Part shown: positions 1 through 40,929 of the stretch, in pieces
How the letters are laid out: each line of letters opens with the position of its first letter
Position numbering within the stretch: position 1 is the first letter of the stretch
IMG/VR virus record: IMGVR_UViG_3300025133_000256
Coordinates: 1 to 40,929 of that record
Length of the DNA stretch: 40,929 nucleotides
DNA from: a virus
Strand: one strand, 5' to 3'
Made by a program: the position numbers and the translations under genes
Notes under the pieces: model-generated
Database searches by the model: none
The model's input: only the letters and a program-made list of their open reading frames with translations
Told to the model about the DNA's origin: nothing

Positions 1-146
1 GTATCCTTTCACCGAAAGGGTATTCCTTTCAGGGACTTACACGGGCTTTACGCACAATCACCATGTCGCCGTGACTTTAAGGTCTTGTACGCACCTAGGA
101 TTGTAGTCCCACGCACCTACGTCTACAACCGTAGGTAACCCGATGC
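1..146. repeat. Direct terminal repeat, left copy
   Basis: The first 146 bases recur at the right end of the window with one substitution (G at 20, A at the matching position 40803), leaving 126 exactly identical bases. This is what a circular or terminally redundant phage genome looks like after assembly. The left end contains a small hairpin, CCTTTC-ACC-GAAAGG; the differing base lies in its stem, and the right-hand copy pairs perfectly for nine base pairs. No coding gene lies in the repeat. Whether it is a true packaged terminal repeat or an assembly overlap cannot be decided from sequence alone. Confidence 0.85.
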
Positions 147-156
147 CACGCACCTA
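88..156. repeat. Three copies of a CACGCACCTA-like 10-mer
   Basis: TACGCACCTA (88-97), CACGCACCTA (110-119) and CACGCACCTA (147-156) lie in the gene-free stretch before the first leftward genes. A related CACGCACCT occurs at 36882-36890 in another intergenic region. The second copy overlaps a hairpin, ACCTACG/CGTAGGT, at 115-136. Repeated short sites in an intergenic region suggest protein-binding sites, but no function is shown. Apart from these repeats and the hairpin, I see nothing else in 147-218. Confidence 0.45.
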
Positions 157-218
157 TACAGATGCCGCTTGCAGCCTAAAGCCTATTTACCCTCGCTGCA
201 ACGAGCCAAAACTCAACT

Positions 219-4062: not shown

Positions 4063-4280
4063 ATGGCGGGAATATAGCCAAGATCATCGGTGCAGTTGCT
4101 GCTCTTGTTGCTGCTGTCGGCGGTTTTTTGGTAGCCGTTGGGGATTCGGATTCCCAACAGGCTCCTGCTGTTATCATCATTAGGGGTTCTACGTTACCTG
4201 AGGATGATCTGACGGATTCCGAGAAGGACAGGGAGTGGGTGTTCAATGAGTCGCTTAGGGGAACTGAGGCAGGAGGCTGA
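4053..4280 (+). CDS. Small membrane-anchored protein, 75 aa
   Basis: The GTG start at 4053 lies inside the previous stop region. Residues 9-29 (AKIIGAVAALVAAVGGFLVA) form a clear transmembrane segment, followed by a polar acidic tail (DDLTDSEKDREWVF). It overlaps the terminase ATPase gene by 35 bases. A single-span protein with a short N-terminus could be a holin-like or spanin-like protein, but it lies far from the endolysin gene, so lysis is uncertain. No family is recognised. Confidence 0.55.
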   Translation: MSVDGGNIAKIIGAVAALVAAVGGFLVAVGDSDSQQAPAVIIIRGSTLPEDDLTDSEKDREWVFNESLRGTEAGG

Positions 4281-5133
4281 GTGGCGTAGGTGTCAGCGTA
4301 GCGAGGTTCATTTTTTAGAGAATTACTGGTATATTGCGCATCCTGCGCATGGCCGTATTTTGTTTAAGTTGCGGGGGGCGCAGTCGGAGGCGTTGAAGCG
4401 GTGGGATAACAACCGTTATTCGTTGACGTTGAAGGCTCGTCAGATTGGGTGGACGACGTTGGTGTCTGCTCATCAGTTTTGGTTGGCGTTTTTTCACGAC
4501 GATCAGAATGTGATTGATTTGTCGCGTACGGAGCGGGAGTCGATTCTGTTGTTGCGTAAAACCAAGTATGGGTTTAAGCATTTGCCGATGTGGATGATTG
4601 AGCGGGGTCCGCAGTCGTTGATGGATCATCAGCAACGTATGGGGTTCAGCAACGGTTCTCAGATTACGTCGATGCCTTCGGCATCTGACCCTGCGCGTGG
4701 TGAGTCTGCTACGTTGGTGGTTGTGGATGAGTGGGCGTTCCTGCCGAACCCTGAGGAGGCGTGGGCGTCTATTGAGCCTGTTGCCGATGTGGGTGGCCGC
4801 ATTATTGGGCTGTCTACTGCTAACGGGTCGGGAAACTTTTTTCATCAGTTGTGGGTGGGGGCGTCTACGGGGAACAATCAGTTTGATCCAATGTTTTTTC
4901 CGTGGTCTGCTTCCGAGGATAGGGATGAGTCTTGGTATGAAGGTAAGAAGAGTTCGATGTTGCCGTGGCAACTCGCACAGGAGTATCCGACGAGTGCCGA
5001 GGACGCATTTGTTCGTTCTGGCAACCCTGTATTCGATATTGACGTTCTTAATGATATGCGTGTGCATGTTCGACAGGGTGTGGACGGCTATCTCCATGAA
5101 ACGTCCAAAAACGTTTTGGAGTTCCGATGTTGA
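4246..5133 (+). CDS. terL: Large terminase, ATPase subunit (split TerL), 295 aa
   Basis: Motor ATPase that drives DNA into the procapsid. ARQIGWTT at residues 64-71 is the terminase-type Walker A variant (usually ..G-K-T; here Trp replaces Lys, as in some lineages with an upstream Arg). VVVDEW at 158-163 is Walker B with catalytic Glu162, and GLSTANGSGNFF at 188-199 is the coupling motif III. The protein stops at the point where a normal TerL continues into its nuclease domain. Its TGA overlaps the ATG of the next gene (ATGTTGA), which encodes that nuclease. AGGGAG lies ahead of the start. Confidence 0.88.
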   Translation: MSRLGELRQEAEWRRCQRSEVHFLENYWYIAHPAHGRILFKLRGAQSEALKRWDNNRYSLTLKARQIGWTTLVSAHQFWLAFFHDDQNVIDLSRTERESILLLRKTKYGFKHLPMWMIERGPQSLMDHQQRMGFSNGSQITSMPSASDPARGESATLVVVDEWAFLPNPEEAWASIEPVADVGGRIIGLSTANGSGNFFHQLWVGASTGNNQFDPMFFPWSASEDRDESWYEGKKSSMLPWQLAQEYPTSAEDAFVRSGNPVFDIDVLNDMRVHVRQGVDGYLHETSKNVLEFRC

Positions 5134-5792
5134 CGGTGTGGGAGCAGCCTGAGCGTTGGTCGGGGTACGTTTTGGGTGTCGATACTGCTGAGGGGTTGGG
5201 GCATGGCGACTACTCATGTATTCAGGTTATTGACGCGAAGAAGGGGGAACAGGTCGCTATTTGGCATGGACGTATCCCGCCTGATGAGTTGGCTACTGAG
5301 GTGTACCGTTTGGGTTTGTGGTACGGGAACGCTCTTTGCTGCGTTGAGGCCAACAACCACGGTTTGACCACGATTACGGTGTTGCGCCAGTTGGGGTATC
5401 CGAACCTGTACCGTCGGCGGGCGTTGAATACGTCTTCGCAACGTATTTCGCAGGAGTACGGGTGGAAGACGACACGTACATCGAAGCCGTTGATGATTGA
5501 TGATTTGGGTAAGGCTTTGAAAAACGATGAACTGATTTTGCATTGCGATTCTACGATTGCGGAGTTGCGTACGTTTGTACGCAACGACCGTGGATCAATG
5601 TCTGGTTCGCCGTATGATGATCGGGTGATGGCGTTAGCGGTGGCGAATCAGATGCGCAAGTTTGCGTATGTACCCGAGTTTGTACAGCATGTGGATGATA
5701 CGTGGACGTTTGATTGGTGGATGAGGCAGATCCCGTCAGGGGTTGCAACGGATGATACAATCGGCACTTACCTGTCGCGTGGGACAGCGTAA
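5127..5792 (+). CDS. Large terminase, nuclease subunit (split TerL), 221 aa
   Basis: RNase-H-fold nuclease of the large terminase, which cuts the concatemer at the start and end of packaging. LGVDTAEG (Asp19), VEANNHG (Glu74) and PYDDRVMALA (Asp164/165) supply the expected metal-binding acidic triad. The reading frame differs from the ATPase gene and overlaps it by seven bases, so the two domains are made as separate chains or joined by a rare frameshift. No intron or homing endonuclease lies between them. The C-terminus (DDTWTFDWWM) is aromatic and acidic. Confidence 0.87.
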   Translation: MLTVWEQPERWSGYVLGVDTAEGLGHGDYSCIQVIDAKKGEQVAIWHGRIPPDELATEVYRLGLWYGNALCCVEANNHGLTTITVLRQLGYPNLYRRRALNTSSQRISQEYGWKTTRTSKPLMIDDLGKALKNDELILHCDSTIAELRTFVRNDRGSMSGSPYDDRVMALAVANQMRKFAYVPEFVQHVDDTWTFDWWMRQIPSGVATDDTIGTYLSRGTA

Positions 5793-19067: not shown

Positions 19068-22000
19068 ATGGCGCGTCCCGTAACACCTAAAGAGGATTTT
19101 CGTCCTCGCGCTGCGGCAGCGGTTAAAAATATTAACCCACGGATGCCCAAGCGGGAAACCATGTCCATTGAGCCTCCGCCTCAAAGTGATTTACTTAAGG
19201 CTTTAGGGGTTGAACTTTCGGCTGATCCAGCCTCCTATTACAGCGGGGCTGGTTCTACTACGTGGACTCCTGCTGCGCCGATGCAAGAGTGGCGGCAGCA
19301 GCACGCGCACGACACTATGGTTGCCAACTTGGATTGGCAGGGGAAACTCGCCTACGATGTCGGGAGCGCGATGACGGAGGGTCCGTTTGCCACTGCGTTA
19401 GAGTATTTGTTGAAGCCTCTAACTGTTGCGGTTACGGGTACTCGTTTGCTTGTGGAGAATGTTCTCAGGAAGCGTCCCGAAGAGGGTGGTCTGAGTTGGG
19501 GGGATGCTTGGGACAAGATTGGGGGCACCTATACGTTTGGTGAGATGCTTGCCGATTACGACATTTGGCAGGAACCTGAGAATTTGAAGTGGGCACGGAT
19601 GGCTGGCTTTGCGGGTGATGTTGCGCTTGATCCGTTGACTTGGCTTGGCTTGGTTGGTAAGGCAATCGGTATCGGGGCTAAATTGACGGGCGAAGGTGCC
19701 CGTGTTATCAGTGGTCACGCTGTCCGTAATGCGATTATAGCCCATGTAGGCGATGATGCTGGCAAGGTGTTCGGTGGTATATTCCGAAACACTAGATTGT
19801 TGGATGATAATGTCATGCGTGGGGTTGCTGACGATCTTGTAAAGGGAACCGATAACTTTGTTACGCGGGTTTCTGATGATGTCGTTGAGTTGGATTTGAA
19901 CAAGTTGGGTGGTGTTGTGGGTCCGACCGATCCGCTTGATACTTCACTCATTATGACATTAGATAATGCTTTGATTGATGATATTACGAAATTGTATGAT
20001 GCGGGTGCCCGTGCAATTCGGCGGGGAGCGACTGCGGTCACCGACGACGAAATGCGTATCGCAGCCCGCCATATTGCCGCTAGCCAGTTGGACAACTCGC
20101 TGCGCTCACCGTCGCAGATAGCGACTCGCGCCGTTGACGATGTAACAGCAGGTACAACTAGGGGCTATACGAATCCGTGGATTGTTGCCGACGAGGTTGA
20201 AGACCTGACATTTGCATTTGGGTGGAGGGTTCCATTCACGGGTAGAGTCGGTAAGGCGATATTCCGCCACAAACTGCAACAGCCGATTGGGTTAAAGTTT
20301 TGGGGGTCTAACACGCGGGCACCGTTTATTGGTACGTGGGTACGTGGTGTGCCACAGGCTGCCCGTACTGTCTTCTTTGGTCGCAACATTATTGGCAAAG
20401 GCCCAGTTGCCAAGGCTGCCCAAATGGCTGGCAAAGCAACACAGGAGAAGGTCGGAACGGGTTACGGTGGGCTGATTGGTTGGATGAAGCGTGGTGGTCG
20501 CGCTCCTGAAATACGCCAGTTGATGAAGACGGCAATGCAGGAGGGTGACGCTGTAGGCGTTCATCACATGAAAGCGTTTTTGCACGCTGCTGGACGGGGC
20601 GACATGGCGGGGCGCGTCGTACGGCAGGAAATGTTGAGGAAGGTGGATGCCTTTTTCAAGGAAGCCGATGTGGCGGGTGCCAATAGTGCTGATTTGTACC
20701 ATGCCATCGCGGGCAGCGAGGACGCTGCCGCGAGGGTTGGTCAAGAGTTGACGGACAAGGGGCGCTTGTTGATGCGAGATTTGCGTCAGTCGGCTAACGA
20801 ACATGGGGGGCAAAACTTCCTCGGTCATTCTTCCGATTACGTTCCTCGCGTTTTGTCCGAAGAGGCACGTACCTATTTGGAGGCCAAAGGTAGGGGGCTT
20901 GTCAACAGGTCACACAAAGGCCATGCATATAAAGAGAGTGGCTTTGAACAGACACGCTCGTACATTTCTAAAGAAGAATTTGATTTCTTGGTTGATGCAC
21001 AGGTCGCCAAGGGTGCGTCACCTGCTGAAGCAGACGCAGCCGTGCGTGCGTCAGGGCGCCAGCACGACTTCTTAGGGGAAGACTTGTATAAGGCGGGTTC
21101 GGAGATGCCCAGCGGTGAGATCGCTCAAGACGTTGAGAAGCAGATCGCTGACATCATGGAGCGACATGCAATCTCCTACTCTCTGTTTGACGAAGACCTG
21201 CGGGTGGCCCTCAGCGCGTACGTTGACGCGATTTCCAAGCGTGTGGGTGAGGTATTCACTGACACGCTAATGAAGAAGCAGGGCATCTTCTTTGACCGTA
21301 CGGCAATGGCCGTTCACATCCCTGACCTCAGAATGACTGATGCTGTCATGGATGTTCGTTCAGCAGCGTCCACGCTGCTTCGTGCTGAGACAGACTTGGA
21401 TCACAAGTTGAAGGTAGCGATAGAACGCTTTGGTAAAGATCAGGCTGATGCAGCGGACTCGGTAGTGGAGGCCAGAGAGACACTGCGAGTGGCTGACGAA
21501 TCGTACAAGCGGGCTGTAGAAGCACATGACGTAAAGGCGCAAGAGTTCCTGTTGCTTGAACAGGAGGTTATGTTTATTGAGAAGCGGATTCTTGATCTTG
21601 AGGGTAGGGAGCGGGGGCTGCGTGTAGACATGGAGGGCGCTCCGTTTGAGCGCCTTGTGGAGATGGAGCGTGAGGTTCAGGAAATCGTCAAGGTGTTGGA
21701 TGATTTGTACAAGTCGAAGCCCATGTTTGAACTGGAGTTGTCAAGGTTGCGGGCGTCAACTTATGCAGTGTTGACTTTGGAAGACAAAATATACACTGTC
21801 TTTGGAGATCAGAAAACGTTTGAAAAGTTTGTTGGTGCGTTCGATGAGTACGTCGGGGGAAGCGTAGACGAGTATGCGATGGCGGCTGCGCGCGACGGGA
21901 AGAAGGGCTTCACACCTATCCGCGATACTGTTGCTCCAGCGGAGGCTGGCGTTGTTGATGAGGCTGGAAACGTCGTGTACCAGCAGGCTTCTGATGTTGT

Positions 22001-25000
22001 CGGGTGGGAGTTGAAGGTCGGGGACAGGGTTATCAACTCTGATGAAGCAACTCAGATGCTTGGAAACGTTGAAGCGATTATCGCGGACTTGGACGGTACT
22101 GGGTTGGCGAATTGGCTTGGCTTGGAAATGCACGTAAGGGCTAAGGACGCTACGGGGATTGCGTCGTCGCTGTCGCAGGTTGAGTCCGCTAGAACAATTT
22201 TGACCGATCAGGTGAAGAGGGCGGTTGAACGGTTGGAGAAGGGGATTCAGCACCTTGGCCCTGATGAACTGGTGGGGAGCATTCCTTCTCCGATGAATGT
22301 TACGGATTCAAAGAGGTTGATGCTTACCAAGTTGGACGAATTGTGGAAGCAGGCGAACGATCCAGCCAGCAATATGTTGTGGGATGACATATGGCCGACG
22401 GTGATGAAAGATCCTGAATTCGTAAATGCGGCTTCCACGTATTATGGCGTTTTCGGGGATTCGCGGGCGGTGACCACGATCCCCGACGGGTTGGCCCTTG
22501 ACCAGTACATAGAAACTGCGAAGATATCCTTGCGGGCGCGGGCGCAGCACTTGGAGACACAGTTGGCTGATGCGCCTGTGATTACGGCGACGACACCCGA
22601 AGGGTTGATCTATGAAAATTTGACCATCTCTGATGTCGTTTATATCATGCGGTTCCAAAACGAAATCATACGTGCCCCCCACGGTTCTCAGATGCCGTTT
22701 GCAACAGACAATATCCCCATCAGTAAATTGTTTGCTGATGGGGAGATTACTGGCGGTTGGCAGGGGAGCGGGGGAATGGCTTTTGCTGAAGATGCTGGTT
22801 CTGACTTGGGGGTGAAGGGCGGCTCCAACGAAGGGTACAAGATTAAATACACGTTGGCTGATGGAACCATTAAACGTTTCTACGTTAAAAAGTATGTAGA
22901 TGTTGCGGGATCATACCCTTCAGGGGCGACCGCTGATGCGGCACGCCACCGTGTAAGCGGCGAAGTTCTCGCTGATCGCCTCTACAACGAAATCGTTACT
23001 GGTAGTGCCCCTGCGAGTTGGTACGGTCAGGTGGATGAGGGCCAGTTTGCGGGTATATGGAAGGCCACCGATTGGGAAGACGAACTCGTTCAAGGCATAC
23101 ATGTGCCAATGACCCACCAGTATCGGGAGAAGATGGCGGACGGCACGTATCGTATCGTTCAAACGTACTCCGAACATCCTTACGGCGCAATATATGACGA
23201 TGTGCACGATTACATCACTCCTGAAACGCTTGACCTTACTGTGCATACGCCTATGTCTGACCTTGTTGGCGACCAGATGGCAACAGACATGCTCATTGGG
23301 AACCTTGATGCGGTCGGATTCGCAGGTGACAACATCGGTGTCAACAAGATGACGGGTGAAGTTTTTCGGTTGGACAACGGGTCAGCGTTCCACTATCGGG
23401 CACAAGGAGAACTTAAGGGCGGATCGTATGACTATAGGAACGTTGACGAAATCACAGGTTTCTTTGATTTAGCATTTGAGGGAAATCAGGCGAAGACTAT
23501 CAGCATGTGGCGGCAGTTTCGTTCTACATTCGATGACGTTGAAGGCGGGATCGGCATGGCGGCTGAGTTGTCTCGGCAAACTGATCGCCTGTTGGCTGCA
23601 CGTACCGCGAATGGGGGCTGGGCCAAGTGGGTGCGAAAGCAGTTGCCAGATGCCCCTGAAGAAGATATTCACATGTTTGTTGACTGGTTGGAAACACGCA
23701 CTCAGAAGATGGCTGAGCAATTCGGTTTGACGTACAACACGGGCGACGACATGATCGGGGAAGCCCTTGCACGGACGGGGGTTGGTCCCGCACAGATTGA
23801 TGAGGCGCTTACAGGCACTTATGGAGCGACGCAGCGAACGTCGGAGCGGTTGGGTTTGCGGGCGTGGCTTTCCCCCAAGGGTGGGATGAGTGGAGTACCT
23901 GAAAGTCAGGCGTTGGAATCGTTTACGATTACGGATGCAATTGACGAGTTGCTTCGCAACGCTGACAACGTTGGTTCGCAGGCCCGCGATGTAGAAGTTG
24001 TGAGGCATCTCTGGGATTTGCGGGAAAGCGGGATACTGCAACGCATGTTGGCATCCCGCCACGCTTTAGACATTGACGATCCTACCTTGATGCACGCGAT
24101 GTTCAGGAGCGAAATTGATGAGACAACGTTTGCGGCTGCGGAGGCAGGGCCAAAGCAGGCGAGCGATGTCGAAGACTGGATGGCGCAGTTGTCGGGAGAT
24201 GATCTGATAGAGGCGCAGATGTTGATGAAGGGGCAGGAGACTCCTGCTGGAACTGTTGATGAAGCGTTGCCGCCACTATCTCACCCATTTTGGAAAGACC
24301 CTGATGTTGCCGACACCGTTTCCCAATTTGGTAGGGACGCCGTTGAACCCGAAGACTATGCTTCGTGGAAAATTGCTGAGCAACAGCACGAAGTAGCATG
24401 GAACGTAGAAGCGGGCTATAAATCCGCGCCCGAAGCATCTGCCATACGGGCGACAGAGTTCTTGCCGAAGACAGCCGACGAGGTGCCGTGGGAGCAAGCG
24501 ACGAATCGTTACGGTGTTGTCATTATGGATGGCGTAGATTCTGTCTATTTGCGTATGCCCACTAACGATCCCCTTACAGGCCAGATCGACGGGGGTAATC
24601 GTTGGACGCATTCCTATGGAATGCAGACTCGTACCGCAGGTATGGCTGACGAGAACCCTATGCAGGTTGCTGTACGCGAGGCATATGAGCAAACGGGCCT
24701 TGATGTTGAACTTGTCGGGTTTGTCCCCGAGGTGTTTCATGGTGCTGAACAAACTCATTACTTTGTTGGACGGGTTAGGGCAGGAACCTCTTCGGGTCGT
24801 ACTGTTCCCACAAGCGACCCGCAGGTACACAACCAGTTGTTGAGGCTGAACCATGCATCAGGTCATGGTGGCTATTTCGCTCCGCATTGGCTTTTAGGTA
24901 CCAATAGTGCCAATTGGATAGATCAGTCTGCTCCCAATGCGAACATCATGGCAGTCGTGTACGACATGGTTTCCAGTAGGTACCAGCATCAATTCAGGGT

Positions 25001-28000
25001 CAACTTGCCGCATGGTGCGTCAAGTATCAAAGTGTACGGGCTTCCTGCACATGACCGTCTGCGTGCAGCGGAGGCTATTGTGAAGCAGGCCGACGGCCTT
25101 GATCCTAGAGTTCCTGAGCAGTTGACTAGGTTGCAAGGGCTTCAAGGCGAGATTGAGAATCTTCTTAGCGGAGAAGGGAACGCTGCTGGTCTTTTCGGAA
25201 CCGAGGGTCAATACAGTCACGCTACTACGGAACACGGTCAGTTCGACATGATGTTTGACATGTATGAACGTGTCCGCGATGTGGACCCTGACTTGTGGGA
25301 AGGGTTGTTGCACGATTGGCGTGCGGGTAGGGCTATCAACACGATTGAAGAAAATACTGCTGCCAGCCAAAAGATTAAGCAGGGGGCAAAGGTGGTTGAT
25401 ACGGTAACCGCGTTGGAGGCTCGCGGAGTTTTCCCTGAAGGCATGTCGTGGCGTCACAAGATGACGTTCATCGGGTGGCTTAACACGAACAGCGCATACG
25501 ATGGGAATATCAGGTCTGCGTTGCACGCAATGCATGACGGCGTTTCAGTACCTTTAGCGCAGAATCCGTTGCAGTCGCTAATCCTGACTGTGGAGGCGGC
25601 GGGTGGCAATCTGTCTCGCTACGAAATGTATACGAAGGGTTTGGATAACCTTGCCGCGCAACCCACCGCGCAACTTAAAGAGGATGTATTGACATTCATT
25701 GCTTCGATAAGCAACGATTCGTCAAAGGTTGGTTCAGGTTTCAGCAATCGGTTTGATGCGGAAGGCGCTCAGGTTCTTAATCCCTTCCTTGGACCCCAAG
25801 ATAGAACTGGAGGCCGTAATATTCTCGTCCAAATGGGCGAGTATGCGCATCAGTTTGGCGCGCAACATGCCCGTGAAACGGGTCCGATGGCGGCGAGGGC
25901 AACGTTCAAGCCAATTGACACAGTGCAGCAGTATGGGGGTCCGTTGTATACTGGGAGGACGAGGGGGTGGGCGACAGCGGAGACTCCTTCTCACGTTCCT
26001 CCTGATCCGACGGTACTGGGTGGCCCAACACCACGTTCGCCGTACGCGCAGGAACAGTTGAGGGCTGCTGTTCGTACGCACGCTCGTTTCTTGGAGGCGT
26101 ACAGGCGGTCGTTGTCTTCGGGCAGTTTGGCTAGTGACAACAACGGGTACGCTGTTTCTGTTTGGTTCAACCAAGAAAGTGCCCGTTGGAATACTGCTCA
26201 GGGCCACTCGGACAATCCTACGTTGGCTAATTTCATGTTGACAAATCCGCGCGCAATTATGCCTGACACCATACACACTGGTGGCCTCGTATCAGAATTG
26301 GATAAGTTCAGAGGGCAGACAGGTACGAGGGGCAGCGCGGAACATGATGTCTTTATGAATGCGGAACAGTTCCTGAAAGAATACGAGGAAATGGCGAACG
26401 CTCAGTTTGTGCCTCGTGAGTTTGACGAGGCACAACAGCCCGATTTGTTGGCAGCCTTGCAGCAAGAAAAGGCTGAAGTGTTGTTGGATCGGGACGCTGC
26501 CAACAAAGCACTTGTTCTGTCACGTTCAGAGTTGCAAACCGCACGTAACCAAGTAGATGCTCTCAAGAAACAACGCGACTGGGGAAGGGACCACTTCGAC
26601 CGCGCCGATGCTGCACTGGACTTGGCAGATGAGCGCGTCGCTCATGCGGTGAAAGCGCAGGAACAGTTGGAAGCGTTGCGGGTGAGTGCGGCGGCGACCC
26701 CTGACGACGAGTTGGCAGACATATTTAAAGATATAGCAGTAGCGGTGTCACACATACACATGGTTACCGTGAACCAAGTAGATCAGTCTATTAGCAACGC
26801 GCTGGCGTGGTCTATCCAAGGGCCAAAAACCGTCAAGGCAGGCGCAAGACCGTCTGATTACAAACATCAGGCTAGAATAATGGATGGCATTTTCGGGGAA
26901 GTAGGATTCCCACCTTCGGAGGTGTCAGAGGTGGGGAAAGATTTGCAGGCAGGTCTTGAAGGGATAGCAAAGATCCGAGCGGGGAAGGCTGAAGGACCGT
27001 TTGATACGTTCGTTTCTGACGACGAGTTCTGGTTCCCGCTCCGCGACTTCGCAGACCGCGAAGAAGTCCTAGAGCAACTATGGATGTCAGGGTACAAAGC
27101 CTTCGGGTCTAACTCGCAAGGACCAGAAGCAATGGTCGAAGCCATGACTGCCGTGACACGCTTCAATGCGCAGGGCGGATGGGGTGAATTCCTACGCCAC
27201 TATGACAAGGTGCACAACCTGCTTAAAGGCTACATGATTGCCAAGCCCGGTTTCCATATGCGTAACTTCTTTTCTGCAACGTTTATGAATTTCTTGCATG
27301 GTGTGAAGTTCAGTAGTTATCGTCAGTTTCAGCGTGCGTATTGGAAGTTCCAGCATGACCTTGCGGTTGAGCAGGGGATGACTCGTAGGGCTGATTCGAT
27401 GAAGGCTTCGATGAAGAAGCGTGGCATTTGGAATAATGTCAATGCTGACGATGTTGCGATTGTACGCGAGATGTATGAGGGTAACATTCTAGGTGGTTCC
27501 AGTGGTCAGGTTGCGGCAGAGTTTCTACAGTCTCCGTTGGAGCAAGGCGGGTTTCGTCGTGCGTGGGGTACGGTCAATCCGTTCAATTCGCGGAACGCTC
27601 CGTTGCGACTGTCGCGCAACGTCGGTGTTGGAACTGAAACCTATGTACGCGGCGTGTTGGGATTCGATGTCTTGAAGCATAGCAACGGCACCGTTGACGA
27701 TGCTTTCGATGCGATTACGAAGTGGCACTTCGACTATAGTGACCTGTCGGCCTTTGAGTCCAAGGTCATCAAGCGTCTTGTTCCGTTCTATACGTGGACG
27801 AAGCACGCGCTACCGTTGATGATTGAGCAGGTTGGGAAGAACCCTGCGAAGATGTCGATGTATTTGAAGGCCAAGCGCAACATTGAGCATGGACAGGAAA
27901 AGGCGGGGATTGTGCCTCCGTACTTTCTGCGACAGGGTGCCATTCAGTTGCCGTTCAAGTTCAAGGGTGAGAACATGTTTGTTCTGCCTGACTTGCCGTT

Positions 28001-28529
28001 CAAGACTCCGTTGGAGTTGATTGATCCTGCGTTGGCGCTTGACAAGGACATGTCGGTTACGGATCGTATTCAGGTCATGTTGGGTAGTGTGGGTACTCAG
28101 ATTACACCGTTGATTAAGGCACCGTATGAGTGGAAAGCCAAGCAAAATTTGTGGAAGGGTTACAACTTTGATGGTCGGTATCAGCAGGTGCCCACTGCGT
28201 ATCGAAACATTCCGTTGTTGATGCCGATGTTGGATGCCCTTGGGTTGGCTGAGAAACAAAACGATGTTTGGTTGATGCGTGATTATGAACTGCATACGAT
28301 GGGGCAGTTGTTGCCTACGTTCACGGACATGCGGCGGCTGTTTCCGTCGGAGGAAAGGTACCAGCAGCGCACGCTGTCTACGTGGATGAGTTTCGCATTC
28401 GGTATGGGTTTGCGCACTAATACTTTGGAGGAACAACGGCGTGTGATAGAGTCTGCGTACTGGCAGCAAGTGGAAAAAATGGGGGACATGCGTCAGTTGC
28501 TGCAAGAAAGCCAAAACGAAAACCCGTAG
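19068..28529 (+). CDS. Giant polyvalent virion protein, 3153 aa
   Basis: One gene occupies almost a quarter of the genome. Visible parts: residues about 180-195, AGFAGDVALDPLTWLG; coiled coil about 775-885; a kinase-fold-like segment about 1215-1445, with a Gly-rich loop and FYVKKY, catalytic-loop-like LIGNLDAVGFAGDN (near 1409) and metal-site-like RLDNGSAF (near 1434), resembling HipA/FAM20-type kinases; FWKDPDVAD near 1741, shared with the 371-residue protein at 2850; a Nudix-like segment about 1815-1990 with REAYEQTGL near 1870 (first box Glu missing); a second coiled coil about 2460-2543; and a C-terminal region with MIAKPGFHMRNFFSATFMNF and LVPFYTWTKHALPL. Such large multidomain proteins are probably packaged and ejected. 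Domain calls are by motif only. Confidence 0.7.
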   Translation: MARPVTPKEDFRPRAAAAVKNINPRMPKRETMSIEPPPQSDLLKALGVELSADPASYYSGAGSTTWTPAAPMQEWRQQHAHDTMVANLDWQGKLAYDVGSAMTEGPFATALEYLLKPLTVAVTGTRLLVENVLRKRPEEGGLSWGDAWDKIGGTYTFGEMLADYDIWQEPENLKWARMAGFAGDVALDPLTWLGLVGKAIGIGAKLTGEGARVISGHAVRNAIIAHVGDDAGKVFGGIFRNTRLLDDNVMRGVADDLVKGTDNFVTRVSDDVVELDLNKLGGVVGPTDPLDTSLIMTLDNALIDDITKLYDAGARAIRRGATAVTDDEMRIAARHIAASQLDNSLRSPSQIATRAVDDVTAGTTRGYTNPWIVADEVEDLTFAFGWRVPFTGRVGKAIFRHKLQQPIGLKFWGSNTRAPFIGTWVRGVPQAARTVFFGRNIIGKGPVAKAAQMAGKATQEKVGTGYGGLIGWMKRGGRAPEIRQLMKTAMQEGDAVGVHHMKAFLHAAGRGDMAGRVVRQEMLRKVDAFFKEADVAGANSADLYHAIAGSEDAAARVGQELTDKGRLLMRDLRQSANEHGGQNFLGHSSDYVPRVLSEEARTYLEAKGRGLVNRSHKGHAYKESGFEQTRSYISKEEFDFLVDAQVAKGASPAEADAAVRASGRQHDFLGEDLYKAGSEMPSGEIAQDVEKQIADIMERHAISYSLFDEDLRVALSAYVDAISKRVGEVFTDTLMKKQGIFFDRTAMAVHIPDLRMTDAVMDVRSAASTLLRAETDLDHKLKVAIERFGKDQADAADSVVEARETLRVADESYKRAVEAHDVKAQEFLLLEQEVMFIEKRILDLEGRERGLRVDMEGAPFERLVEMEREVQEIVKVLDDLYKSKPMFELELSRLRASTYAVLTLEDKIYTVFGDQKTFEKFVGAFDEYVGGSVDEYAMAAARDGKKGFTPIRDTVAPAEAGVVDEAGNVVYQQASDVVGWELKVGDRVINSDEATQMLGNVEAIIADLDGTGLANWLGLEMHVRAKDATGIASSLSQVESARTILTDQVKRAVERLEKGIQHLGPDELVGSIPSPMNVTDSKRLMLTKLDELWKQANDPASNMLWDDIWPTVMKDPEFVNAASTYYGVFGDSRAVTTIPDGLALDQYIETAKISLRARAQHLETQLADAPVITATTPEGLIYENLTISDVVYIMRFQNEIIRAPHGSQMPFATDNIPISKLFADGEITGGWQGSGGMAFAEDAGSDLGVKGGSNEGYKIKYTLADGTIKRFYVKKYVDVAGSYPSGATADAARHRVSGEVLADRLYNEIVTGSAPASWYGQVDEGQFAGIWKATDWEDELVQGIHVPMTHQYREKMADGTYRIVQTYSEHPYGAIYDDVHDYITPETLDLTVHTPMSDLVGDQMATDMLIGNLDAVGFAGDNIGVNKMTGEVFRLDNGSAFHYRAQGELKGGSYDYRNVDEITGFFDLAFEGNQAKTISMWRQFRSTFDDVEGGIGMAAELSRQTDRLLAARTANGGWAKWVRKQLPDAPEEDIHMFVDWLETRTQKMAEQFGLTYNTGDDMIGEALARTGVGPAQIDEALTGTYGATQRTSERLGLRAWLSPKGGMSGVPESQALESFTITDAIDELLRNADNVGSQARDVEVVRHLWDLRESGILQRMLASRHALDIDDPTLMHAMFRSEIDETTFAAAEAGPKQASDVEDWMAQLSGDDLIEAQMLMKGQETPAGTVDEALPPLSHPFWKDPDVADTVSQFGRDAVEPEDYASWKIAEQQHEVAWNVEAGYKSAPEASAIRATEFLPKTADEVPWEQATNRYGVVIMDGVDSVYLRMPTNDPLTGQIDGGNRWTHSYGMQTRTAGMADENPMQVAVREAYEQTGLDVELVGFVPEVFHGAEQTHYFVGRVRAGTSSGRTVPTSDPQVHNQLLRLNHASGHGGYFAPHWLLGTNSANWIDQSAPNANIMAVVYDMVSSRYQHQFRVNLPHGASSIKVYGLPAHDRLRAAEAIVKQADGLDPRVPEQLTRLQGLQGEIENLLSGEGNAAGLFGTEGQYSHATTEHGQFDMMFDMYERVRDVDPDLWEGLLHDWRAGRAINTIEENTAASQKIKQGAKVVDTVTALEARGVFPEGMSWRHKMTFIGWLNTNSAYDGNIRSALHAMHDGVSVPLAQNPLQSLILTVEAAGGNLSRYEMYTKGLDNLAAQPTAQLKEDVLTFIASISNDSSKVGSGFSNRFDAEGAQVLNPFLGPQDRTGGRNILVQMGEYAHQFGAQHARETGPMAARATFKPIDTVQQYGGPLYTGRTRGWATAETPSHVPPDPTVLGGPTPRSPYAQEQLRAAVRTHARFLEAYRRSLSSGSLASDNNGYAVSVWFNQESARWNTAQGHSDNPTLANFMLTNPRAIMPDTIHTGGLVSELDKFRGQTGTRGSAEHDVFMNAEQFLKEYEEMANAQFVPREFDEAQQPDLLAALQQEKAEVLLDRDAANKALVLSRSELQTARNQVDALKKQRDWGRDHFDRADAALDLADERVAHAVKAQEQLEALRVSAAATPDDELADIFKDIAVAVSHIHMVTVNQVDQSISNALAWSIQGPKTVKAGARPSDYKHQARIMDGIFGEVGFPPSEVSEVGKDLQAGLEGIAKIRAGKAEGPFDTFVSDDEFWFPLRDFADREEVLEQLWMSGYKAFGSNSQGPEAMVEAMTAVTRFNAQGGWGEFLRHYDKVHNLLKGYMIAKPGFHMRNFFSATFMNFLHGVKFSSYRQFQRAYWKFQHDLAVEQGMTRRADSMKASMKKRGIWNNVNADDVAIVREMYEGNILGGSSGQVAAEFLQSPLEQGGFRRAWGTVNPFNSRNAPLRLSRNVGVGTETYVRGVLGFDVLKHSNGTVDDAFDAITKWHFDYSDLSAFESKVIKRLVPFYTWTKHALPLMIEQVGKNPAKMSMYLKAKRNIEHGQEKAGIVPPYFLRQGAIQLPFKFKGENMFVLPDLPFKTPLELIDPALALDKDMSVTDRIQVMLGSVGTQITPLIKAPYEWKAKQNLWKGYNFDGRYQQVPTAYRNIPLLMPMLDALGLAEKQNDVWLMRDYELHTMGQLLPTFTDMRRLFPSEERYQQRTLSTWMSFAFGMGLRTNTLEEQRRVIESAYWQQVEKMGDMRQLLQESQNENP

Positions 28530-39600: not shown

Positions 39601-39902
39601 GCGTCTACCTCTTCCTTATCCCAATTCATCAACACGCCAAGGTCGTCACCCTCAATCGCAAACCCATACTCAGCAGCCGCATCATTCGTCCACACATACT
39701 CACATGAGTAGTACGTTCCGAAGTCATGCGGGTTCGCCTGAATACACAACAACCCACCGTCAGGCTCATTACCGTAATGGCGCCTAATCTGCTCAATGAA
39801 CCGCCTCAAATGCGCCTGTGCCTCACGAATGTAAGCGTCACCGCCCAACTGCGGACAAGGCTCATCCCACGGCCCATCACCGATATACATGCTGTCTCTC
39901 AT
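39597..39902 (-). CDS. Hypothetical acidic protein, 101 aa
   Basis: GGAGG lies six bases ahead of the ATG at 39902. Acidic protein with GDGPWDEPCPQLGGDAYI, a helix (EAQAHLRRFIEQIRRHYG) and a beta-like C-terminal half (GGLLCIQANPHDFGTYYSCE, NDAAAEYGFAIEGDD). Fold unknown. It heads the chain of coupled leftward genes down to 38395 and follows the (CT)n hairpin at 39942-39981. Confidence 0.7.
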   Translation of the reverse strand: MRDSMYIGDGPWDEPCPQLGGDAYIREAQAHLRRFIEQIRRHYGNEPDGGLLCIQANPHDFGTYYSCEYVWTNDAAAEYGFAIEGDDLGVLMNWDKEEVDA

Positions 39903-39941
39903 AACGTACCTCCGTACATTAAATGGCTATTTCCAACACTT

Positions 39942-39981
39942 CCCATCTTCTCTCTCTCAAAAGAGAGAGAGAGAAGATGGG
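39942..39981 (-). terminator. (CT)n hairpin, second copy
   Basis: The stem CCCATCTTC-(CT)n with (GA)n-GAAGATGGG and an AAAA loop begins 15 bases past the stop of the gene at 39996. Its core is identical to the hairpin at 219-258, and the sequences just before both hairpins are also similar, so the two are copies of one element. Probable terminator or mRNA 3' element of the upstream gene. Confidence 0.6.
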
Positions 39982-39995
39982 GGATTCCATACGCA

Positions 39996-40394
39996 TCAAC
40001 CCTGACCCTCTTCCGCATTACGGACGAACTCAGCGCACTCAGCCTCAAACTTCTCCAACGCACTTTCATGCATCGGAATGATCGGCCTCCAACGCTCATC
40101 ACGCGCAGCCAAGTTAGCCTCAGCCTCCATCTCCTTCGTACTCTTCGGACGAGGTGGCGCATTAGCCGACAACGCACTCATCGACCCACGCCTAACCTCA
40201 TCGTCACCGTAATCAAACTGATCCGTGTCCGTAGGCAACCAACGCACATTAACCTCACGGTCAAAGAACGACGGGTCCGCTTGAGTCTCATCTAGCGCAC
40301 TCTCAACACGGTTACGAGCCTCATCCTCGTCATCCGCTTGGATATGAAACTCCCAATGCGCAGTCTCAATTACCTCAACCACATACATATTCAT
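39996..40394 (-). CDS. Hypothetical acidic protein, 132 aa
   Basis: Of two in-frame ATGs, the second (40394) has AGGAGG at seven bases, the first only one base, so I use the second. The N-terminal beta-alpha part (MYVVEVIETAHWEFHIQADD, then EDEARNRVESALDE) resembles small DpnD/PcfM-like early phage proteins. The remainder is acidic, with a Pro-containing linker and helical C-terminus (ALEKFEAECAEFVRNAEEG). First gene of the leftward run after the tRNA-like elements. Confidence 0.65.
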   Translation of the reverse strand: MNMYVVEVIETAHWEFHIQADDEDEARNRVESALDETQADPSFFDREVNVRWLPTDTDQFDYGDDEVRRGSMSALSANAPPRPKSTKEMEAEANLAARDERWRPIIPMHESALEKFEAECAEFVRNAEEGQG

Positions 40395-40446
40395 ACGCAT
40401 ACCTCCTGTAAGCGTCTATTCATTGCCAATGTATACTCATGCAGCA

Positions 40447-40482
40447 GGAGGGTGCCACCTGCTTAGGACAGGCACACCCTCC
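40447..40482 (-). terminator. Bulged hairpin downstream of the tRNA-like elements
   Basis: GGAGGGTGCC (40447-40456) pairs with GGCACACCCTCC (40471-40482) through one small bulge, with an inner CCTG/CAGG. It lies between the tRNA-like elements and the first leftward protein gene. No T-run; possibly a terminator or processing hairpin. Bases 40395-40446 contain a possible -10-like TATACAT on the leftward strand but no clear -35. Confidence 0.4.
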
Positions 40483-40512
40483 CATTCGCCGCAACCGATT
40501 GTGCTACGGAAA

Positions 40513-40582
40513 ACACGGGGCGGGAATCGAACCCGCAAACGCAACACACTGCGCATCCTCAGCCCCATCTAGCGACCCGTGT
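40513..40582 (-). tRNA. Degenerate tRNA-like element
   Basis: A perfect 7-bp acceptor (ACACGGG/CCCGTGT) and a perfect T arm (GCGGG-TTCGATT-CCCGC) are present. The inner part is abnormal: only 39 bases between acceptor and T arm, no D stem, and an anticodon-like GCGCA/TGCGT stem with a six-base GTGTGT loop. No CCA is encoded; T follows the acceptor. It could be a decayed tRNA, a tRNA-like regulatory RNA or a tRNA with an unusual core. I do not assign an amino acid. Confidence 0.5.
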
Positions 40583-40605
40583 GTGGGTTAGGGGCTTCCC
40601 GTGCA

Positions 40606-40688
40606 TGGTGGAGGTGAGGGGAATCGAACCCCTGTCCGCAAGCGTCCGACATGCGGCTTTCACTTGCGTCGAAACCATAGCCACCCCC
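40606..40688 (-). ncRNA. Miniature tmRNA-like RNA (tRNA-like domain only), 83 nt
   Basis: Read leftward, GGGGGTG pairs with CACCTCC, giving an acceptor stem with a G3-U70 wobble, then A73 and an encoded CCA. GGTTTCGAC follows the 5' strand at the position of the universal tmRNA signature, there is no D stem, and AGGGG-TTCGATT-CCCCT is the T arm. CGCAAGTG/CGCTTGCG forms the P2 helix, closed by a 16-base loop with a small CCG/CGG stem. In ordinary tmRNA that site holds several hundred bases with pseudoknots and the tag reading frame; here they are absent. By the G3-U70 rule it could be charged with alanine. Confidence 0.75.
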
Positions 40689-40783
40689 GTGGCGTCTGTT
40701 GCGGGGGACGTAACCCTTCCGCTCCTTGGGGACAGACAACTCCCACTCGCACCTATTCGCAGGCGGTACAAGCCAACCTGTAT

Positions 40784-40929
40784 GTATCCTTTCACCGAAA
40801 GGATATTCCTTTCAGGGACTTACACGGGCTTTACGCACAATCACCATGTCGCCGTGACTTTAAGGTCTTGTACGCACCTAGGATTGTAGTCCCACGCACC
40901 TACGTCTACAACCGTAGGTAACCCGATGC
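40784..40929. repeat. Direct terminal repeat, right copy
   Basis: Copy of bases 1-146 with A at 40803 instead of G at 20. With A, TATCCTTTC-ACC-GAAAGGATA is a perfect 9-bp hairpin; with G it has one mismatch. The copy begins 96 bases beyond the 5' end of the tmRNA-like RNA. The bases between, 40689-40783, contain GTCTGT/ACAGAC and CCCCCG/CGGGGG pairings upstream of that RNA but no gene. Confidence 0.85.

Follow-up and report, generated by a model that had tools for sequence, protein, structure and literature searches.

Messenger-less tmRNAs reduced to the tRNA-like domain form a broad phage family and may divert stalled ribosomes from host tagging

Introduction

The closest described counterpart of the RNA reported here comes from Mycobacterium phage DS6A, which was classed as 'TLD only' (Hudson et al. 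2014, PMC4131195) and, like our element, is a phage tmRNA comprising approximately the tRNA-like domain (TLD) alone, with no tag reading frame (tmID 11587; PMC4131195, PMC11915505; Mao et al. 2009 cited there). A molecule similar to the DS6A RNA is a strong inhibitor of tmRNA in E. coli in chargeable and unchargeable form alike, perhaps through titration of SmpB (PMC4131195). The 2025 tmRNA database repeats this inhibition, discusses a single phage case, DS6A, and lists 9 unique tmRNAs of the 'standard, no CDS' class among 97,179 (PMC11915505). The integration site of DS6A is tRNA-Lys and not ssrA (PMC10865867).

Three other groups of RNAs invite comparison. The CDS-less tmRNAs of jakobid and oomycete mitochondria (RF02544) and of Mallomonadaceae plastids likewise lack a tag reading frame, although they are mostly permuted two-piece molecules served by a nucleus-encoded SmpB, and no relation to the phage RNA has been shown. 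Full phage tmRNAs, among them that of Wakanda and the second one in Tomas and in Riptide, agree with our element in TLD signature, acceptor identity and the start of P2, but they also carry a tag (DNSNVAFALAA, ANSKFAFALAA) and a messenger domain, both of which it lacks. The ssrA-derived attP fragments of Shandong1 and phiGD17-1 share the ssrA 3′ end with it; however, they consist of the 3′ half only, with no 5′ acceptor strand or P2 partner, and come from integrating phages or lie next to an integrase. Full-text searches of the open-access literature turned up no description of a broader family of TLD-only RNAs in phages.

Results

A complete tRNA-like domain without a messenger domain

The window, which is the whole stretch of 40,929 nucleotides of viral DNA analysed here, contains on the minus strand of 40606-40688 a complete tmRNA TLD, 83 nt in all. 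It reads GGGGGUG-GCUAUGGUUUCGA-CGCAAGUG-AAAG-CCG-CAUGU-CGG-A-CGCUUGCG-GAC-AGGGG-UUCGAUU-CCCCU-CACCUCC-A-CCA, with the following parts:

40606..40688, minus strand: TLD-only tmRNA, whole element, CCA encoded (RF00023 76.7 bits; family model R1 76.4 bits)
40682..40688, minus strand: acceptor stem 5′ strand GGGGGUG, G3 at 40686 (7/7 pairs with 40610-40616)
40669..40681, minus strand: D-loop analogue GCUAUGGUUUCGA with the tmRNA signature (RF00023 alignment)
40661..40668, minus strand: P2 helix 5′ strand CGCAAGUG (8 bp with 40637-40644)
40645..40660, minus strand: AAAG bulge, mini-hairpin CCG-CAUGU-CGG and 3′ A, replacing messenger domain and pseudoknots (hairpin covariation)
40637..40644, minus strand: P2 helix 3′ strand CGCUUGCG (own-partner versus swapped pairing)
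40617..40633, minus strand: T arm AGGGG-UUCGAUU-CCCCU (element sequence, RF00023 alignment, family alignment)
40606..40616, minus strand: acceptor 3′ strand CACCUCC with U70 at 40612, A73 at 40609 and CCA at 40606-40608 (element sequence)

The Rfam tmRNA model RF00023 matches the element at 76.7 bits (E 3e-28; gathering cut-off 47 bits) with both model ends aligned and 306 central model positions absent. A reading made earlier from the sequence alone had proposed a tmRNA reduced to its TLD at this place, and the features that it named (signature, P2 helix, T arm, G3-U70, A73 and encoded CCA) are all present, with an acceptor stem of 7 bp, a T stem of 5 bp and a P2 helix of 8 bp. No messenger domain, resume codon or tag reading frame was found in the element, where 16 nt separate the P2 strands, and pseudoknots PK1-PK4 are absent, 83 nt leaving no room for them. 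These 16 nt (AAAGCCGCAUGUCGGA) had been described as a loop; the length stands, while the interior is better described as a 3-bp hairpin with an AAAG bulge on its 5′ side and a single A on its 3′ side, the hairpin being conserved and covarying in the family described below.

The D arm and the anticodon arm with a 7-nt loop of an ordinary tRNA are missing, no RF00005 match is listed at the element, and ARAGORN makes no call on it. A match to the permuted two-piece tmRNA model RF04321 at 40559-40633 was rejected, as its 26.8 bits fall below the cut-off of 47 and rest on the element's T arm and acceptor 3′ strand. In energy folding the TLD fold ties with another fold at -31.9 kcal/mol (z -1.4). 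Since the folding of one sequence by itself gives the TLD fold no advantage, support for it is comparative.

In being phage-borne, having both acceptor strands and lacking a tag reading frame, the window element resembles the DS6A RNA; the kind of molecule is therefore already published and the window RNA is not unprecedented. DS6A differs in being a single case from a temperate mycobacteriophage, and the comparison, made by description, covers the features just named.

Distribution in viral genomes

A strict pattern (TGGTTTCGACRN{4,30}GGACNNGGGTTCGATTCCC) matched 18 viral contigs in IMG/VR, and a looser one (TTCGACN{8,38}GGACNNNGGTTCGANTCCC), run split by the next base, matched 76 (T), 62 (G) and 55 (A). 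Altogether, about 200 IMG/VR contigs carry a TLD-only element. The set of distinct sequences, nearly all viral, numbers 132 after 9 pattern matches that do not form the acceptor (ordinary tRNAs or chance) were left out. Clustering of their flanks by nucleotide sequence, with the element masked, gives 59 unrelated clusters that share no neighbor gene, any one protein occurring in at most 6 of the 59. A closely related pattern run over 11.3 million bacterial and archaeal contigs gave only four matches, three of them clear cases: L131 and L134 are clear family members in actinobacterial MAGs and L133 is a shorter form, the fourth being chance or a tRNA. The possibility that these elements are debris of tRNA clusters was discarded, as 101 of the 132 loci have no ARAGORN tRNA within 2.5 kb.

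In L103, L111, L133, L169, L086 and L074 the RNA has a second, shorter architecture, in which the P2 ends are 14-21 nt apart and the mini-hairpin is missing.

Conservation, covariation and the alanine identity signal

The search patterns left the acceptor, position 73 and the P2 strands (beyond the first pair) unconstrained. Nevertheless, among the 132 distinct elements pair 3-70 is G-U in 131, base 73 is A in all 132, all seven acceptor pairs form in 131, and GG precedes UUCGA in 131. CCA is encoded in 31 of the 132 and differs even among the near relatives of the window, as expected for an RNA completed by the host CCA enzyme. For P2 pairs 2-7, pairing is seen in 90.2% of cases with the true partner and in 42.6% (sd 1.9) once partners are swapped between sequences.

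A family covariance model, R1, was built from 12 other sequences with the window left out, and recovers the element in 100 of the 100 sources searched, the window included (76.4 bits). In the R1 alignment 96.0% of cells pair versus 68.5% when shuffled, the covariation score of 0.650 falls to 0.131 on shuffling and to 0.091 or less on sliding, and double changes occur in 8/8 P2 pairs and 3/3 mini-hairpin pairs; this alignment leans toward its model, whereas the partner-swap test is independent of alignment. In most cases the mini-hairpin has a CACG, GCAA, CAUG or CAAG tetraloop and follows an AAAG bulge or a comparable one rich in purines. Given its presence in about 200 viral sequences from dozens of unrelated phages, the TLD-only RNA is a real phage gene.

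Among the 103 aligned sequences, pair 3-70 is G-U in 102, while acceptor pairs 4, 5 and 6 vary freely with compensation. A fixed 3-70 pair beside drifting pairs 4-6 points to selection for charging and not for shape alone, and the acceptor pairs match the pattern that would be expected if alanylation were under selection. This bears on the simplest reading of the DS6A work, namely that the RNA is purely a sponge that withholds SmpB from host tmRNA, with charging irrelevant. That a DS6A-like molecule inhibits tmRNA chargeable or not speaks for it (PMC4131195), but G3-U70, A73 and full acceptor pairing are kept in essentially all relatives though neighboring pairs drift, and we regard a pure sponge as quite improbable. 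Because inhibition in E. coli does not need charging, the conservation of G3-U70 may mean a role beyond SmpB titration. The strict alanine identity leads us to argue that the RNA works on the ribosome in its charged form and is not a bare sponge.

Carriers, SmpB and coexistence with a full tmRNA

In the 51 carrier records examined, no strong tmRNA match other than the short RNA was found. None of these records encodes SmpB, so that host SmpB would be used. Cultured carriers include the Streptomyces phages LuckySocke, GiJojo, pSt2308, BRock, Shaeky, Alone3, Riptide, Tomas and Naboo; in annotated Streptomyces phage records the element lies beside or inside tRNA clusters and bears no tmRNA annotation. 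BRock has been described as virulent and devoid of lysogeny genes (PMC7453282). Tomas, Riptide and Naboo carry a full tmRNA as well, ~9-12 kb from the short RNA and with the tag DNSNVAFALAA or ANSKFAFALAA. It indicates that the short RNA in these phages is a second, separately maintained gene. Their short RNAs keep G3-U70 and the mini-hairpin, and have a degenerate D-loop which makes SmpB binding there doubtful.

These observations, with the covariation over 132 sequences, also bear on whether the element is what remains of a once full tmRNA gene, or an att-site copy of host ssrA. Real ssrA 3′ fragments do occur beside integrases or in integrating phages (Shandong1, phiGD17-1), and a tyrosine integrase is present in 7 of the 51 carrier records, near the element in only a few. 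However, the covariation already contradicts such an origin, the 5′ half is present, the carrier BRock is reported virulent (PMC7453282), and Tomas, Riptide and Naboo have a full tmRNA in addition to the short RNA. A search of the window for tyrosine and serine integrases (PF00589, PF00239) found none, in agreement with the earlier view that both acceptor halves and the lack of an integrase speak against an ordinary attachment site. That view had named a full tmRNA at the same locus in relatives as the sign of a deletion relic; all near relatives carry the short form. We therefore reject the relic or att-site origin, which is almost certainly wrong.

Genomic context in the window

A terminal direct repeat of 146 nt (1..146 copies 40784-40929 with one mismatch) indicates that the window genome is probably complete. 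The record is classed as linear, and the sequence is probably that of a complete, circularly mapped genome. Two further features flank the element:

144..206, minus strand: Pistol ribozyme (RF02679 53.5 bits)
40513..40582, minus strand: degenerate tRNA-like sequence with T arm GCGGGUUCGAUUCCCGC (tRNA-Sec 20.5 bits, below cut-off)

With the ends joined, the minus-strand order is Pistol ribozyme, ~330 nt, TLD, degenerate tRNA-like sequence and a leftward gene cluster, and the order Pistol-TLD is kept in the relatives L006 and L010. The element itself occupies non-coding sequence with minus-strand ORFs on either side, and a scan of 39900-40929 gave no match to a sigma-70-like promoter. By protein the nearest to the window phage is an uncultured podovirus, in which no tmRNA-like match was found.

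The tRNA-like sequence lies 23 nt downstream of the TLD RNA, lacks both a normal anticodon loop and an encoded CCA, and recurs as a near-identical copy in L006 and L014, being absent from the flanks of L009, L010 and L076. A Pistol ribozyme is also found in the unrelated carrier L093, elsewhere in its sequence.

This neighborhood raises another role for an alanylatable RNA without an anticodon, as a non-translational alanine donor, an RNA processing signal or a stability element in the Pistol leader. The location in a non-coding stretch between minus-strand ORFs, together with the Pistol ribozyme and a second tRNA-like sequence, is in keeping with such a role. Against it, the tmRNA-specific D-loop signature and P2 are kept over 59 unrelated contexts with no common neighbor gene, and a processing signal would need neither, so we consider it very unlikely.

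Elsewhere in the window, the large terminase is represented by two overlapping ORFs, 4246-5133 and 5127-5792 (plus strand), for the ATPase and nuclease parts; it is one CDS in the nearest relative MW202803, and the window may hold a split gene or a frameshift. A single ORF of 3153 aa occupies 19068-28529 (plus strand) of the 41-kb genome and has no Pfam match. Long near-perfect intergenic hairpins at 1336-1400 and 1449-1490, with sub-threshold Rfam matches, are probably bidirectional terminators.

Discussion

The breadth of the family, the conserved mini-hairpin, the strict conservation of the alanine signal and the coexistence with a full tmRNA appear to be new relative to the DS6A precedent. 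The reading that we favor, with a confidence somewhat above even, is that the RNA is an alanylated, SmpB-binding competitor of host tmRNA that would accept nascent chains without tagging them. We infer from sequence that the phage RNA would be transcribed, processed by RNase P and completed with CCA, and that host AlaRS would charge it with alanine through G3-U70 and A73. It could then bind host SmpB via the D-loop and elbow and EF-Tu via the charged acceptor, and enter non-stop ribosomes in competition with host tmRNA for both these ribosomes and SmpB. Once there, it would accept the nascent chain but offer no resume codon or tag, so that stalled chains would remain untagged for proteolysis and host trans-translation would be blocked or diverted, presumably to the benefit of the phage. 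By analogy, this competition is supported by a published precedent, the inhibition of tmRNA in E. coli by a DS6A-type RNA (PMC4131195, PMC11915505). A tagging inhibitor is odd, on the other hand, in a phage with its own full tagging tmRNA, as in three carriers, unless timing or host specificity differ.

The main rival to a charged competitor is productive rescue without a tag, in which the charged RNA and host SmpB would free ribosomes from broken mRNAs, the peptide being hydrolyzed later, at no cost of tagging and proteolysis. The strict alanine identity across the family fits this equally charged role, and CDS-less mitochondrial tmRNAs persist together with a mitochondrion-targeted SmpB, from which the authors infer help with incomplete mRNAs (PMC11915505). 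However, no release step is known without the tag stop codon, and the DS6A-type RNA behaves as an inhibitor in E. coli (PMC4131195). Productive tag-less rescue is thus unlikely in our judgment.

More broadly, our results can be read to mean that phages widely encode alanylated, messenger-less tmRNAs with a conserved P2 mini-hairpin, which would capture host SmpB and steer stalled ribosomes away from tagging, and which in some phages would act alongside a full tmRNA of the phage's own, as a separate RNA for anti-rescue or for rescue without a tag; we hold this general statement to be evenly balanced between right and wrong. Current annotation overlooks these genes, since ARAGORN skips the window element and those of BRock, LuckySocke, Riptide and Tomas are unannotated. 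The laboratory Streptomyces phages that carry the element make the question testable now. With 132 distinct sequences in 59 unrelated clusters, nearly all viral, the TLD-only RNA represents a broad phage gene family instead of a curiosity. Such breadth points to the control of ribosome rescue as something that phages commonly target. The RNA probably interferes with host rescue and tagging of stalled ribosomes.
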